Positions 27,280 through 32,429 of a stretch of 64,000 nucleotides of DNA are shown piece after piece. Made by a program: the position numbers and the translations under genes. The DNA comes from Rhodopseudomonas boonkerdii (GTDB lineage: Bacteria > Pseudomonadota > Alphaproteobacteria > Rhizobiales > Xanthobacteraceae), in NCBI RefSeq assembly GCF_021184025.1, contig NZ_CP036537.1:2418001-2482000 (forward strand). The letters are read 5' to 3'. The notes under the pieces are model-generated. The model did no database searches and had not been told where the DNA came from. It saw nothing but the letters and a program-made list of their open reading frames with translations. The stretch's first letter is position 1. Every line of letters begins with the position of its first letter.

Positions 27280-28215
27280 CTAACGCCACCTTCTGTGCAG
27301 CCACAGCCACTGATCCGGATATTCGCGGATCCAGCCTTCCAGCACCGACGTCACTGCCTGCATGGTGCCTGCGATGTCGACCTTGCCGTCGGCCGTGCGC
27401 ACCGGCTTCACTTCCTCGGACAGCTCGATGCGGAAGCGATGGTTTGGCAAGCGGATCACGCGCACGCCATGGATCGGGCAATCGACCTGACGCAGCAGGC
27501 GCGGCAACATGGGATTGGCGCGTGTCTTGCGGCCGAAGAAATCCACCTCGGCGCCCTTGGTGAACCATTGGTCCACCAGCATCGCCACATGCTTGCCCTC
27601 GTCGAGCGCATGCGCGAGCTTTACCGGTGCATCGTGGCTGGCGGCGATCAGATGGCCCATGCTCACCGCCCGGATTTTTTTAATGGCACGGTCCGCCGCC
27701 GCGATGTTCGGTGGGCGATACAGCACTGCGGTATCGAGCCCATGTGCGACAGCGGCGAGGGCAGGAATCTCCCAATTGCCGAGATGGCTCGCAAAGATCA
27801 GCGCAGGCTTTCCGTCATCGCGGAGCTGATCGAAAATCTCGCCGGTGCGCGCCGAAAATTCGACATTGCTCGGCTTGTCGGGGTTAGCGGGGTCGTAATC
27901 CCAGATGCGATCGAGATGCGCGAATTCGGCGCCGATGCGGCCGACATTGTCCCATACGCCAGTGACAATCCTGTCGATTTCTTCCGGCGACTTCTCAGGG
28001 AAGGCGGCGGTGAGATTCGCGCGCGCGATCTTGTCTTCGCGGAACAAGGGACCGATACGGCGGGTGATCTTGCCGAACAGGTTGGCGGTCTTGATCGGAT
28101 CGAACCATCGCGTTGTGCGCAGCATGCCGATGGTCAGCGCGCCCACGGCAGCTTCGCCCGCTGGCTTCAGGGCGTCGCGGATGCGCGCCTTGGTGCGAAG
28201 CAGCAGGCGGAGCAT
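27280..28215 (-). CDS. lpxXL: Very-long-chain fatty acyltransferase of lipid A (LpxXL/HtrB family)
   Basis: A 311-aa membrane-associated acyltransferase of the HtrB/LpxL superfamily. The catalytic HxxxxE motif is in FASHLGNWEIPA near residue 143; a second conserved block is VDQWFTKGAEVDFFGRKTR. Context with acpXL, two ketosynthase-like genes and an alcohol dehydrogenase identifies it as the enzyme that places a very-long-chain hydroxy acid on lipid A, as established for rhizobia. Its ATG overlaps the stop of the dehydrogenase (ATGA), so translation is coupled; it is the last gene of the operon. Confidence 0.88.
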   Translation of the reverse strand: MLRLLLRTKARIRDALKPAGEAAVGALTIGMLRTTRWFDPIKTANLFGKITRRIGPLFREDKIARANLTAAFPEKSPEEIDRIVTGVWDNVGRIGAEFAHLDRIWDYDPANPDKPSNVEFSARTGEIFDQLRDDGKPALIFASHLGNWEIPALAAVAHGLDTAVLYRPPNIAAADRAIKKIRAVSMGHLIAASHDAPVKLAHALDEGKHVAMLVDQWFTKGAEVDFFGRKTRANPMLPRLLRQVDCPIHGVRVIRLPNHRFRIELSEEVKPVRTADGKVDIAGTMQAVTSVLEGWIREYPDQWLWLHRRWR

Positions 28216-29237
28216 CAGAAGTGGACGATGATCTTGCCGAACACCTGACGCGTCTCCATCCGCTTCAGCGCGGTGGCAACGTCATCAAGCGGCACTTCGG
28301 TGTCGATCACCGGCAGCATGCCGTCGGCCATCTTGTCGAGACTTTCGGCAATGTTGCGCATGGAGGCGCCGAAGGAGCCGAAGATGCGATATTGCTGCTG
28401 GAACAGCTGCATCAGATTGATGGTCGTCGACGGCCCCGAGGTCGAACCGCAGGTGACCAGACGACCGCCGCGCTTCATCACCAGCAGCGAGCCGTTGAAC
28501 GTGTCGGCACCGACATGCTCGAATACGACATCGACACCTTTCTTCTTGGTGATTTTGCGTGTTTCGCCCTCGAAGCGGTCCTTGCGGTAGTTGATCACAT
28601 GGTCGGCGCCGAGCTTCTTCACGCCTTCGATCTTGCTGTCGTCGCCCACGGTGGTGATGACAGTGCAGCCGATCTTTTTCGCCATCATGATGGCGACGGT
28701 ACCGATGCCGGAGCCGCCGGCATGGACGAGGATCGTCTCGCCCGGCTGCAGCTTGGCATTGTCGAACAGCATATGCTGCACGGTGGAGAAGGCGATCGGT
28801 GCGCAAGCGATATCGCGGAAGCTCAGGCTGTCAGGGGCGGGGATCACGAGCCGCGCCGGCATGTTCATCAGCTCCCGCGCAAAACCGTCGATGTGGAAGC
28901 CATAAAGGCCGCCGACGTTTTCACAGAAATTGTCACGGCCTTCCTGGCAGGCCTTGCAGTGGCCGCAGGTCAGCGCGCCATACATGGCGACCTTCTGGCC
29001 TGGCTTGAAATTGGTCACGCCCTCGCCGACCGCTGCAATCTCGCCGGACGCTTCGGCGCCGATGGTGATCGGCAGCTTGCGCTTGGCGAAGGCCATGCCG
29101 CGATAGCCCCAGACGTCGATATGGTTGAGGCCGACCGCCTTGACGCGGATCTGCACTTCGCCGGCTAGGGGCGGCGGGGGCGGGGGAACGTCGGCGGTGA
29201 TGAGCTCGCGTTCAGCAGCAAGATTGAGCGCACGCAT
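28215..29237 (-). CDS. adhXL: Zinc-type alcohol dehydrogenase of the VLCFA cluster
   Basis: A 340-aa medium-chain dehydrogenase. N-terminal GroES-like domain with structural zinc Cys cluster (CGHCKACQEGRDNFC near 92-106), then a Rossmann domain with ILVHAGGSGIGTVAIMMAKK near 168, typical of quinone-reductase-like MDR members. In rhizobia the gene between fabF1XL and lpxXL is called adh2XL, and its reaction in very-long-chain acyl synthesis or modification is not settled. Overlaps lpxXL by an ATGA. Confidence 0.88.
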   Translation of the reverse strand: MRALNLAAERELITADVPPPPPPLAGEVQIRVKAVGLNHIDVWGYRGMAFAKRKLPITIGAEASGEIAAVGEGVTNFKPGQKVAMYGALTCGHCKACQEGRDNFCENVGGLYGFHIDGFARELMNMPARLVIPAPDSLSFRDIACAPIAFSTVQHMLFDNAKLQPGETILVHAGGSGIGTVAIMMAKKIGCTVITTVGDDSKIEGVKKLGADHVINYRKDRFEGETRKITKKKGVDVVFEHVGADTFNGSLLVMKRGGRLVTCGSTSGPSTTINLMQLFQQQYRIFGSFGASMRNIAESLDKMADGMLPVIDTEVPLDDVATALKRMETRQVFGKIIVHF

Positions 29238-29469: not shown

Positions 29470-30750
29470 TTAAACCGGTTCGCCGGTGAGGATCAGGGAG
29501 GCGTTCTGGCCGCCGAATCCGAACGAATTCGACATCACCGCCGTGACGCGGGCGTCGCGGGCGGTGTTGGGAACCACGTCGAACGGAATTGCCGGATCCG
29601 GAACATCGTAGTTGATGGTCGGCGGAATCCGCTGGTGTTCCAGCGTCAGCAGCGAGAACACCGCCTCGACGGCGCCGGCAGCCGATAGAGTGTGTCCGAC
29701 CATCGACTTGTTCGACGACACCGGAATGGTCTTGGCGAGCTCACCGAACACGGTGGAGATGCCGAGATATTCCATCTTGTCGTTTTCCGGCGTGCCGGTG
29801 CCGTGGGCGTTGATGTAATCGATCTTGTCCACGGTCATGCCGGCATCGATCAGCGCGTTCTTCACGCAACCGATGATCGGCTTGCCGTCGGGGCTCGATC
29901 GGGTGCGGTGGAAACTGTCGGCGAGTTCGCCGCAGCCGGCAACGATGCCGAGGATCTTTGCGCCGCGCGCTTTGGCAGCCTCGAGGCTTTCCAGCACCAG
30001 CGCGCCGGCACCCTCGGCCATCACAAAGCCCTCGCGGTTCTTGGCGAAAGGACGGGAGGCCTTGGAGGGCGTCTCGTTGTTGGTCGAGAGCGCCGAGAGC
30101 AGCGAGAAGCGGATCAGCGCTTCCGGATTGACCGAGCCGTCGGTGCCGACACACAGAGCCGCATCGGCCTCGCCGCGGCGGATCGCCTCGACGCCGAGCT
30201 GGATCGCGGTCGCGCCGGAGGCGCAAGCGGTCGAGAGCGAGATCGGCGAACCCTTGGTGCCGAACGTATCGGCGAGGGTGTCAGCGACGGAGCCGAACAG
30301 GAAGCGGCGGTGATATTCGGTGAAGTTGCCGGAACCGGCAGCGCGCAGCAGTGTGTCGTAATTGATATCGGAGTTCGCGCCGCCGGCCTTGGCGAGCGCC
30401 TGGCGTTGCGGCCATTCCACCTCGACTGGGGCTACGGCCAGGAACAGCGGGCCGGGAAAGTCCCCTTTGGCGCCGATACCGGCCTGGGCGATGGCTTCCT
30501 CGGCGACGAGTTCGCCGAGCTTCTCGCAGAGATCAGTGGAGGAGAACGGATCGACATTCAGGAAATCGACCGTGCCGGCCATCGTGGTCTTCATGCCGTC
30601 GATGGGGAAGCGCGTGATGGTGCGGATACCGGATTCGCCGGCGGTCAGTTTATTCCAGTTGTCGGTCTTGCCGGCGCCGAGCGAAGTGGCAACGCCCATA
30701 CCAGTGACGACGACGATCGGTCGGCCGAATTTATCGCGCGTTGCTGACAT
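29470..30750 (-). CDS. fabF1XL: Beta-ketoacyl-ACP synthase, VLCFA type (FabF1XL)
   Basis: A 426-aa condensing enzyme with an intact Cys-His-His triad: STACASGAT (Cys 176), NAHGTGTPEND (His 316) and VGHTLSAAGAVEA (His 353). It elongates acyl chains on AcpXL with malonyl-ACP in the cytosol. Forms a block with the ketosynthase-like gene 39 bases upstream, which lacks the Cys; together they resemble a KS/chain-length-factor pair. Length is normal for FabF. Confidence 0.93.
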   Translation of the reverse strand: MSATRDKFGRPIVVVTGMGVATSLGAGKTDNWNKLTAGESGIRTITRFPIDGMKTTMAGTVDFLNVDPFSSTDLCEKLGELVAEEAIAQAGIGAKGDFPGPLFLAVAPVEVEWPQRQALAKAGGANSDINYDTLLRAAGSGNFTEYHRRFLFGSVADTLADTFGTKGSPISLSTACASGATAIQLGVEAIRRGEADAALCVGTDGSVNPEALIRFSLLSALSTNNETPSKASRPFAKNREGFVMAEGAGALVLESLEAAKARGAKILGIVAGCGELADSFHRTRSSPDGKPIIGCVKNALIDAGMTVDKIDYINAHGTGTPENDKMEYLGISTVFGELAKTIPVSSNKSMVGHTLSAAGAVEAVFSLLTLEHQRIPPTINYDVPDPAIPFDVVPNTARDARVTAVMSNSFGFGGQNASLILTGEPV

Positions 30751-30789
30751 GTGTTCTCCGTTGCCCGTGCGGACCGCTTAACTCGACAA

Positions 30790-31995
30790 TCAAATCGCTT
30801 CGACCAGCGCCATGCCTTCGCCGCGCCAGTGGCCGGTCCCGATCACGACAATCTGGGAGGGCGCCTTCGACATTTCAATCTCAAGGCCGGTGGAATCGTT
30901 GGGCGCATAGAGCGCCCCGCGCGAGAGCGATAGTGCCGCGAGGCCGATGCCGAGCGGAAACTGTGTTTCAACCGCATGACCGAAGGACGAGCCTGTCGCG
31001 CGCACCGGCACGTTCGCATGCTTCTTCAGGAAGCTCAGCTCCTCCGAAGTTGCCGGCTCGGCGCCGGTGGCGCCGGTGATGATCGCTGTGTTCTGCTCGC
31101 CCGCGCCGATATTGCTCCACAACCCGTCGAGCGATGCGGTAATCTCGCCGCCGCCCTTGCGACGCGCACGATCGGCGACCACCGTCTTCAGCCGTGCGAA
31201 TGGCTTGGCGCCGCGCGCTTCCGCATGGGCCTTCGACTCGATCACGAGGAAGGCGCCGCCGGAGCCAAGTGCAAAACCGCTGTTGTTCTTGCGATCCCAT
31301 ACCGGCGAATATTTGTCGCGCAGATTGAAGTTGTCGAATTCGTACAGCAGCAGCATGTCCTTGCGCTCGCCATTATGGCCGGCGCCGACAAGGGTGATGT
31401 CGCTCTGACCATCGGCAATACGTGCGAGCGCGATACGCACGGCGTCCACACCGGCAGCTTCCTCTCCCATGAAGGTGCGGGACGAACCGGTGACGCCATG
31501 CACGATAGCGATATTGCCCGCCAGCAGGTTGGAGAGCTGCGCGAGAAAGAGGGTGGGGCGAAGATCGTTGAGCAGCTTCTCGTTCAGATAGTTCGGCGTT
31601 GCCGAGCCATAGGCTTCGGCGTTGAGAATGCTGGAGTCGACATTGAGATCGCGTTCGCCGCCGCCGGCCGCGACGATCATGTCCATCTTCGACAGGATGT
31701 CCTTGTTGCCCTTTACGCCGGCGGAATCGAGCGCAAGACCGGCTGCGTAGGTGCCGATGCGCTGCCAAGCTTCCATCTGGCGCTGATCGCCCTTCTTGGG
31801 AATCTGGGCGTCGTAACTGACCGGAGAGAGCGGATGCACGACATAGGGCGCGAACGTCGTCTCGTCGACATTGACGCGCTTGCCGTTCAGCGCATCCCAA
31901 TGCGCGTCAGGCCCTTCGCCGAGCGACGACACGATGCCGATGCCGGTGATCCATGCTTCGACGGGCTCGGATGCGACAGGACGGGTTTCAGCCAT
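30790..31995 (-). CDS. fabF2XL: Ketosynthase-like protein lacking the active Cys (FabF2XL)
   Basis: A 401-aa thiolase-fold protein. KS folds are recognisable (WITGIGIVSSLGEG at the N-terminus, EQNTAIITGATG and GSSFGHAVETQFPLGIGL near the C-terminus). The nucleophile elbow reads TFMGEEAAGVDAV near 175-186, so the Cys position is Glu 179 by counting to the downstream conserved Gly. The first catalytic His is also missing (ITGATG where NAHGTG is expected); the second (GHAVE) is kept. This pattern matches chain-length factors, which carry Gln at the same place. It probably pairs with FabF1XL rather than condensing alone. Confidence 0.88.
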   Translation of the reverse strand: MAETRPVASEPVEAWITGIGIVSSLGEGPDAHWDALNGKRVNVDETTFAPYVVHPLSPVSYDAQIPKKGDQRQMEAWQRIGTYAAGLALDSAGVKGNKDILSKMDMIVAAGGGERDLNVDSSILNAEAYGSATPNYLNEKLLNDLRPTLFLAQLSNLLAGNIAIVHGVTGSSRTFMGEEAAGVDAVRIALARIADGQSDITLVGAGHNGERKDMLLLYEFDNFNLRDKYSPVWDRKNNSGFALGSGGAFLVIESKAHAEARGAKPFARLKTVVADRARRKGGGEITASLDGLWSNIGAGEQNTAIITGATGAEPATSEELSFLKKHANVPVRATGSSFGHAVETQFPLGIGLAALSLSRGALYAPNDSTGLEIEMSKAPSQIVVIGTGHWRGEGMALVEAI

Positions 31996-32088
31996 TGGAC
32001 GGTACCTTAGAGGATGCCTGGGACTGTGCCTTTAAGGGACATGGCCGCAAGCGGGAAGCGCAGGCGCTTCACCATGGTGTCCATACGC

Positions 32089-32119
32089 CCGCACCGATCC
32101 CGTTGAAAGGTCGGTGCGG
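32089..32119. other. Intercistronic hairpin between acpXL and fabF2XL
   Basis: CCGCACCGA and TCGGTGCGG form a perfect 9-bp stem with a 13-base loop in the 152-base gap. There is no T-tract, so it looks like a processing or mRNA-stability element that could let the carrier protein be made in excess. Confidence 0.4.
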
Positions 32120-32147
32120 CCTTGAACGCTATCAAAAGCAGGAAGCG

Positions 32148-32429
32148 TTATGCGCCCTTGGCAGCAACCAGCTCATCGATGCGGGCGCTGAGATTCTTCA
32201 GGACGAAGTACTGTTCGGTGGTCGCCTTGCCGTCGTTGACTTCCTGGGTCCACTTTTCCAGCGGCAGCTTGATCCCGAATGCCTTGTCGATCGCGAAAGC
32301 GATGTCGAGGAAGTCGAGGCTGTCGATGCCCAGATCGTCGATGGCGTGGCTTTCCGGCGTGATCGTGTCGCGCGGGATGTCGCAGGTTTCCGCGATGATG
32401 GTGGCGACCTGATCGAATGTGGAGGACAT
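32148..32429 (-). CDS. acpXL: Specialised acyl carrier protein AcpXL
   Basis: A 93-aa acyl carrier protein with the phosphopantetheine site [12 protein letters not shown] (Ser 37). It is longer than housekeeping AcpP (about 78 aa), having a C-terminal extension [16 protein letters not shown]. The [14 protein letters not shown] segment is typical of AcpXL, the carrier of very-long-chain acyl groups for lipid A. First gene of the minus-strand cluster, with start ATG 32429 preceded by a normal leader. Confidence 0.92.

Follow-up and report, generated by a model that had tools for sequence, protein, structure and literature searches.

FabF2XL of the lipid A very-long-chain acyl cluster of Rhodopseudomonas boonkerdii: a ketosynthase fold without catalytic residues, and a proposed chain-length-factor-like partner of FabF1XL

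A 64,000-nucleotide stretch of the Rhodopseudomonas boonkerdii genome (contig NZ_CP036537.1, positions 2,418,001 to 2,482,000; hereafter the window, in which all coordinates below are counted) carries two neighbouring genes, fabF2XL and fabF1XL, of the cluster for the very-long-chain fatty acid (VLCFA) of lipid A. FabF1XL has the active site of a ketosynthase (KS) and FabF2XL has the fold without the catalytic residues, and the reading which best explains the evidence as a whole, at a probability of roughly 0.7, is that FabF2XL is a degenerate, non-condensing KS which forms a heterodimer with FabF1XL and extends its acyl pocket to C26-C30. The two fabF genes of this cluster are currently named as two synthases; if FabF2XL is instead the silent member of a heterodimer, the fact that the two genes stay side by side would be explained, lipid A synthesis would include an enzyme of the type formed by a KS and a chain-length factor (CLF), and there would be a direct way into the question of how length is fixed in the C26-C30 acid that stiffens the outer membrane of rhizobia and their kin.

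Active-site residues of FabF2XL and FabF1XL

Alignment columns (Cys163, Asp265, His303, Lys335, His340, Phe400 and Asn404) are numbered as in Escherichia coli FabF. The features concerned are:

30790..31995, minus strand: fabF2XL, 401 amino acids, a KS fold lacking the residues of the catalytic columns and the proposed CLF-like subunit (NF005084, 622.7 bits, cut-off 320; modelled alone as a full KS fold with a predicted local distance difference test score, pLDDT, of 90.0 and a predicted template modelling score, pTM, of 0.89)
31648..31665, minus strand: GGGERD, residues 111-116 of FabF2XL (112-116 invariant in 18 rows)
31459..31464, minus strand: codons of Glu178-Glu179 of FabF2XL, Glu179 being at the catalytic Cys position
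30976..30978, minus strand: His340 of FabF2XL, its sole retained catalytic-type His
29470..30750, minus strand: fabF1XL, 426 amino acids, the active KS subunit with an intact triad (NF005076, 776.4 bits, cut-off 629)
30223..30225, minus strand: Cys176 of FabF1XL, the nucleophile
29803..29805, minus strand: His316 of FabF1XL
29692..29694, minus strand: His353 of FabF1XL

Residues were counted over 106 loci: the window, 25 from a genome search and 80 related loci, the latter found with scan patterns that did not contain the Glu motif. The 80 related loci are mostly from close relatives (Bradyrhizobium and kin), with some species perhaps counted twice, and so the loci cannot be taken as independent cases; of the 18 genomes with FabF2XL described below, the 16 that fall outside the family of the window are more telling. 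The residue alignment held E. coli FabF and FabB, three KSs of the window genome, seven pairs of KSalpha and CLF from plasmid records, the aryl-polyene KS and CLF genes of E. coli CFT073, and 20 rows each of FabF2XL and FabF1XL.

The initial annotation had claimed that FabF2XL carries Glu in place of the catalytic Cys and has lost one His, and both claims hold. Glu179, within the motif TFMGEEAAG of the window protein, falls on Cys163 in HMMER alignments to solved FabF chains and again in the alignment with FabF, CLFs and KSs; that column holds Glu in 106 of 106 loci and Cys in none. Glu is likewise present in all 18 diverse rows, the other 17 of which are 40-74% identical to the window FabF2XL, and its retention at a catalytic column is far beyond chance. 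The His that was lost is the first, His303 (0/105 loci, with Gly, Ala or Ser instead in the 20-row alignment), while the second, His340, remains in 103 of the 105, the exceptions being L066 with Gln and L120 with Thr. Beyond these changes, FabF2XL is also without the active-site Lys and the gating loop: Lys335 was found in 0/105 loci (Gly, Ala or Ser again taking its place in the 20 rows), Phe400 in 0/105 (100 of which have His there) and Asp265 in 0/106, and Asn404 is replaced by Glu in all 105. As the GFGG loop with Phe400, together with Asn404 and Asp265, is described as the gate of elongating KSs in the accessible part of PMC7138838, gate and chemistry have been lost together, and FabF2XL does not have the Cys-His-His triad and GFGG gate required of FabF or beta-ketoacyl-acyl carrier protein (ACP) synthase II (KAS II).

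FabF1XL has both the triad and the gate (Cys176, His316, Lys348, His353 and the GFGG Phe412), as the initial annotation had held for its triad. The Cys is present in 104 of 104 proteins and His303, Lys335, His340, GFGG and Asn404 in 103 of 103, with L019 (at a contig end) and L097 (in two frames) left out and L096 cut after the Cys.

Decay of fabF2XL to a pseudogene was considered and rejected, since the frame is open (save at the contig-end locus) and conserved and a mutant has a phenotype.

Linkage, conservation and predicted pairing of the two proteins

FabF2XL was assigned to NF005084, a family of the acpXL-lpxXL cluster, by its score above the curated cut-off and the adjoining acpXL, fabF1XL and lpxXL; the nearest named loci by FabF2XL identity are from 'Bradyrhizobiaceae bacterium PARB1' (94%) and Tardiphaga robiniae (82%). 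Among 385 alphaproteobacterial genomes NF005084 gave at least 371 bits in 18, the window's included, the next among the matches listed scoring 94, and NF005076 gave at least 582 bits in 17, with 323 the next among those listed. All 17 FabF1XL genomes are among the 18, with the two genes at neighbouring coordinates, and in the eighteenth (G227) the FabF2XL frame ends at the contig end (Fisher p 1e-28 for co-occurrence, a value which ignores kinship). The 18 include the window's own genome, a second member of its family and a further genome from its order; across the phylum, 28 of 299 sampled genomes pass the NF005084 cut-off, all of them in the window's own class. fabF2XL directly precedes fabF1XL in 105/106 loci, the exception running into a contig end, and the spacing between aligned ends has a median of 34 bases (range 4 to 237, 104 loci). 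Computation thus supports a link between FabF2XL and FabF1XL both in gene neighbourhood and in occurrence.

The two proteins are conserved in opposite parts, FabF1XL in its catalytic half and FabF2XL in the presumed dimer-interface segment. In 18 diverse, hand-picked loci, with segment borders chosen after the alignment was viewed, FabF1XL has 5 invariant columns of 55 in the segment corresponding to FabF 104-162 compared to 55 of 153 for the catalytic half at the C-terminus (p 1e-4), and FabF2XL has 21 of 71 compared to 9 of 129 (p 4e-5). We take FabF 104-162 to form the dimer interface of KSs and also to line the acyl pocket of the partner. The 40 residues of FabF 106-145 are shortened to 33-38 in FabF1XL and lengthened to 46-55 in FabF2XL, and Arg115 of GGGERD in FabF2XL aligns, moderately surely as it adjoins an insertion, with the Phe of the CLF motif SGGFE, presumably the gatekeeper Phe109 of the actinorhodin (act) CLF.

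Because fabF2XL and fabF1XL share a frame, they could be modelled as one linked chain of 841 residues, with both intervening stops read as residues, and an AlphaFold model was built with 28 homologues linked in the same way. This gave a pTM of 0.89 and a mean pLDDT of 83.6, and its top Foldseek match was 6RIW, the KS-CLF didomain of PfaC (TMq 0.71, TMt 0.66; root-mean-square deviation 6.6 Å over 943 columns at 15% identity), which covers both halves; the remaining 49 of the best 50 matches listed had TMq of 0.42-0.44, corresponding to one half. VIA-align 2 aligned about 385-403 residues, mostly of the FabF1XL half, in the 50 matches listed, and as 6RIW was not among these the result speaks neither for nor against the two-half match. 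The weakest part of the lone FabF2XL model, the N-terminus aside, is residues 111-160, and with FabF1XL present the mean pLDDT rose from 62 to 76 for residues 111-120 and from 69 to 82 for residues 121-130. The linked model is compatible with a KS-type dimer and predicts one confidently, which does not imply specificity.

A metagenome protein of 818 amino acids, P0127, joins FabF2XL and FabF1XL in the same order with both residue sets kept. It aligns with 97% of the linked query at 44% identity and represents 3 member sequences, although this fusion could be a stop-codon error. Nine further matches of at least 640 amino acids cover both proteins, and none was counted as a fusion; in the five whose halves were read separately (P0123, P0124, P0126, P0131 and P0144) the joint or an end looked like a frameshift.

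The proposed heterodimer, other readings and the neighbouring genes

As we propose it, FabF2XL would do no condensation and would pair with FabF1XL across the usual KS dimer interface, giving as the working enzyme a heterodimer with one live site. The acyl pocket leading away from the live FabF1XL Cys would be lined or extended by FabF2XL, and FabF1XL would thereby accept chains of up to C26-C30 on AcpXL, a length that homodimers of ordinary FabF or FabB are not known to produce. A heterodimer resembling KS/CLF pairs had been suggested in the initial annotation, and the missing catalytic parts, the gene linkage, the co-occurrence and the predicted pairing, with its pTM and its match to 6RIW, all speak for it, while the likeness of Glu to the Gln of CLFs on which that suggestion drew is loose. 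The heterodimer is a prediction, and the pocket extension and the control of chain length are inferred.

Several points weigh against this pairing. The FabF1XL-FabF2XL complex is known from prediction and not from the laboratory, and any two linked KS chains might dock alike, AlphaFold having seen many KS homodimers. Residues 131-160 of FabF2XL gained nothing from the partner (70 to 66, 62 to 62 and 76 to 76), two of the five linked-model runs were weaker (pLDDT 73.1 and 70.2), and parts of FabF1XL fell below a pLDDT of 50 in the linked model (residues 460-473, 634-647 and 649-656). Of the 17 FabF1XL matches, 10 pass the curated NF005076 cut-off and the others fall short of it. By sequence score FabF2XL is nearer to FabF (47 bits) than to the act CLF (23 bits), and its branch, 1.7-2.5 in length, has no secure placement with the CLFs. 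Trees were built from 62 rows (with the 240-residue E. coli CLF dropped) and from reduced sets of 29 rows lacking CLFs and 27 lacking FabF2XL, from both of which APE_KS2, CLF_L124 and KSa_L124 were dropped and in which 8 of the 20 FabF1XL and 8 of the 20 FabF2XL rows were retained where used. FabF2XL, FabF1XL, CLF and KSalpha each formed one side of a branch, and FabF2XL and CLF lay on the same side of one with support of 100/99, but both are long branches, and tree tests rejected neither a grouping of FabF1XL with FabF2XL (p 0.20) nor one of CLF with KSalpha (p 0.23).

According to the accessible text of PMC11901934, an Agrobacterium fabrum fabF2XL insertion mutant is deprived of VLCFA and plasmid-borne fabF2XL restores it partly, and so polarity on fabF1XL is not the whole story. 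This mutant shows a need for FabF2XL in synthesis and not a change in length; its total loss of VLCFA does not speak to length control, which is a further point against the proposal. In Bradyrhizobium ORS278 mutants in acpXL, fabZXL, fabF1XL and fabF2XL were unobtainable according to the available portion of PMC5613085, which also cites essentiality by transposon sequencing in Rhodopseudomonas palustris, and the portion of PMC5539429 at hand describes Sinorhizobium meliloti mutants in the cluster genes, fabF1XL and fabF2XL among them, as viable with a growth disadvantage.

Invariant Glu178, Glu179, Glu343 and Glu393, with the kept His340, could denote a new activity rather than a dead site, and this too counts against a silent partner. 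FabF2XL would then be an enzyme in its own right, in which these residues and Arg115-Asp116 build a novel centre for catalysis or ligand binding, whether or not FabF1XL is its partner. Apart from His340, all of them are invariant in the 18 diverse rows and present in at least 97.5% of the 106 loci, but the C-terminal half of FabF2XL is overall its least conserved part (the 9 invariant columns of 129 given above) and the compared CLFs likewise keep their substituted residues, at a site for which we know of no chemistry, so we regard such a centre as unlikely. A replaced Cys is also the mark of KSQ domains, and a KSQ-like FabF2XL could decarboxylate malonyl-AcpXL to give an acetyl primer, or regulate flux. 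The widely kept His340 would suit this, yet decarboxylation by KSs requires His residues and the first His, the Lys and the Phe gate are gone from every locus counted, making this decidedly improbable.

A second, separate condensing enzyme for one elongation stage, as implied by the names 'beta-ketoacyl-ACP synthase' and 'synthase II', would fit the intact KS fold and the naming by family models, by databases and by a table in the accessible part of PMC7663294 (where both proteins are called beta-ketoacyl-ACP synthase), but is contradicted by the nucleophile lost from all 106 loci, with three more catalytic elements gone, and is very improbable indeed. In the accessible text of the open-access papers naming fabF2XL, FabF2XL is termed a synthase or elongation protein where it is described; 'active site' was not found there, nor was 'chain length factor', which was also not found in the accessible text of PMC10315480, most subscription journals being outside the search.

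Besides the two fabF genes, the window holds these members of the cluster:

32148..32429, minus strand: acpXL, the specialised acyl carrier protein that bears the very-long-chain acyl group (NF005079, 182.7 bits, cut-off 83)
28215..29237, minus strand: adh2XL, a medium-chain dehydrogenase/reductase, as cluster context
27280..28215, minus strand: lpxXL, the lipid A acyltransferase of the cluster (NF005120, 453.1 bits, cut-off 273)

In 102 of 106 loci fabZXL separates acpXL from fabF2XL; it is absent from the window, where a gap (31996-32147) takes its place, as well as from the nearest relative (L041) and from L039; the fourth exception, L043, begins inside the cluster. Searches for FabZXL across the whole genome, a single contig of 5.63 Mb, found only FabA and a canonical FabZ beside lpxD, and these may serve the VLCFA cycle in this genome. 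The gap contains a weak 24-residue match to the FabZXL C-terminus, which may be a remnant. adh2XL was found in only 25/106 loci, yet an A. fabrum adh2XL mutant is without VLCFA according to the same part of PMC11901934. The relatives of its protein include alcohol dehydrogenases as well as quinone and enoyl reductases, and it may act as the enoyl reductase in the cycle.

A speculative and quite unlikely extension of the proposed heterodimer is that AcpXL, FabZXL, FabF2XL/FabF1XL and Adh2XL form a stand-alone, fully reducing KS/CLF synthase which makes the C26-C30 chain in its entirety, starting on a hydroxy-acyl primer such as 3-hydroxybutyryl-AcpXL, so that the primer rather than a hydroxylase would supply the (omega-1)-hydroxyl. 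The charged GGGERD of FabF2XL, at the position of the CLF gate, would in that case hold the hydroxyl end. The only parallel seen is the mupirocin side chain, which in the available part of PMC10098928 has a 3-hydroxypropionate primer and a carrier, MacpA, resembling AcpXL.

Comparison with known ketosynthase pairs

As in the KSalpha-KSbeta pair of a type II polyketide synthase (PKS; actinorhodin, 1TQY), an active KS here adjoins a full-size partner with a KS fold. FabF2XL shows two marks of a KSbeta, a KS fold without the nucleophilic Cys and a gene adjoining that of an active KS (105/106), and like the CLFs it is also without the first His and the gating Phe, its substituted residue aligning with theirs (AEQAGG in the act CLF, GEEAAG in FabF2XL). 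In PKSs the CLF sets chain length by pocket depth, according to the accessible part of PMC8358021. The statement of the initial annotation that CLFs have Gln at the Cys position stood in part: in seven CLFs (five annotated as such and two inferred from their position after a KS) the residue was Gln in five, Asp in one and Lys in one, and FabF2XL has Glu and never Gln. FabF2XL keeps the second His and loses the Lys where CLFs mostly do the opposite (the second His is Arg in 6/7 and the Lys is retained in 7/7), its interface segment has 52 residues (100/106 loci) compared to 40, its gene precedes that of the active KS instead of following it, and the product is a fatty acid and not a polyketide.

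PfaC of the bacterial polyunsaturated fatty acid synthase (6RIW) is, like the enzyme proposed here, a maker of fatty acids and gave the best two-half match to the linked model; its KS and CLF are domains of one megasynthase polypeptide rather than products of two genes, and 15% identity says nothing on descent. In aryl polyene synthesis, a type II system of Gram-negative bacteria, ApeO-ApeC likewise pairs a KS with an inactive partner, according to the same accessible part of PMC8358021. The aryl-polyene CLF gene of E. coli CFT073 encodes 240 amino acids and FabF2XL is full length. NF004798 was rejected as a source of aryl-polyene CLFs, its loci in two genomes lying beside genes that resemble those for VgrG and PAAR (type VI secretion, by eye); the KS-like proteins concerned (L125, L129, L138 and L139) are of about 350 amino acids and without the KS Cys motif. 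FabF and KAS II share the fold of FabF2XL and gave its best sequence scores in the Protein Data Bank, but FabF2XL is without their catalytic triad, Lys and GFGG gate.

Six proteins of 815-911 amino acids (P0186, P0187, P0189, P0194, P0207 and P0219), four of them named Riflebacteria, Ozemobacteraceae or Phycisphaerae, join an N-terminal dead KS to a C-terminal active KS and, like FabF2XL, have Glu at the Cys position (WEGQG); they differ in being one polypeptide, in keeping the Lys and in having Asn or Asp for the second His, and are weak FabF2XL matches. An acidic residue at the Cys site is therefore not unique to FabF2XL, as these six have Glu and one CLF inferred by position (L147) has Asp. 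Tandem KSs in the reverse order, live then dead, were seen in P0161, P0164, P0177 (from Paenibacillus larvae), P0181, P0209 and P0218, and an Apilactobacillus plasmid (L124, 4254-5453) has a KSalpha-like gene followed by a CLF-like gene with Lys at the Cys position, annotated fabF.

On this comparison FabF2XL would work like half of a KS/CLF pair yet is not to be filed as a type II PKS CLF, because it has no Gln, keeps another pattern of residues and scores nearer to FabF, and because the trees do not place it securely with the CLFs. If FabF2XL is the silent partner of FabF1XL, the two would be a further case of the live and dead ketosynthase pairs that have arisen repeatedly, as in the antibiotic-making polyketide synthases.

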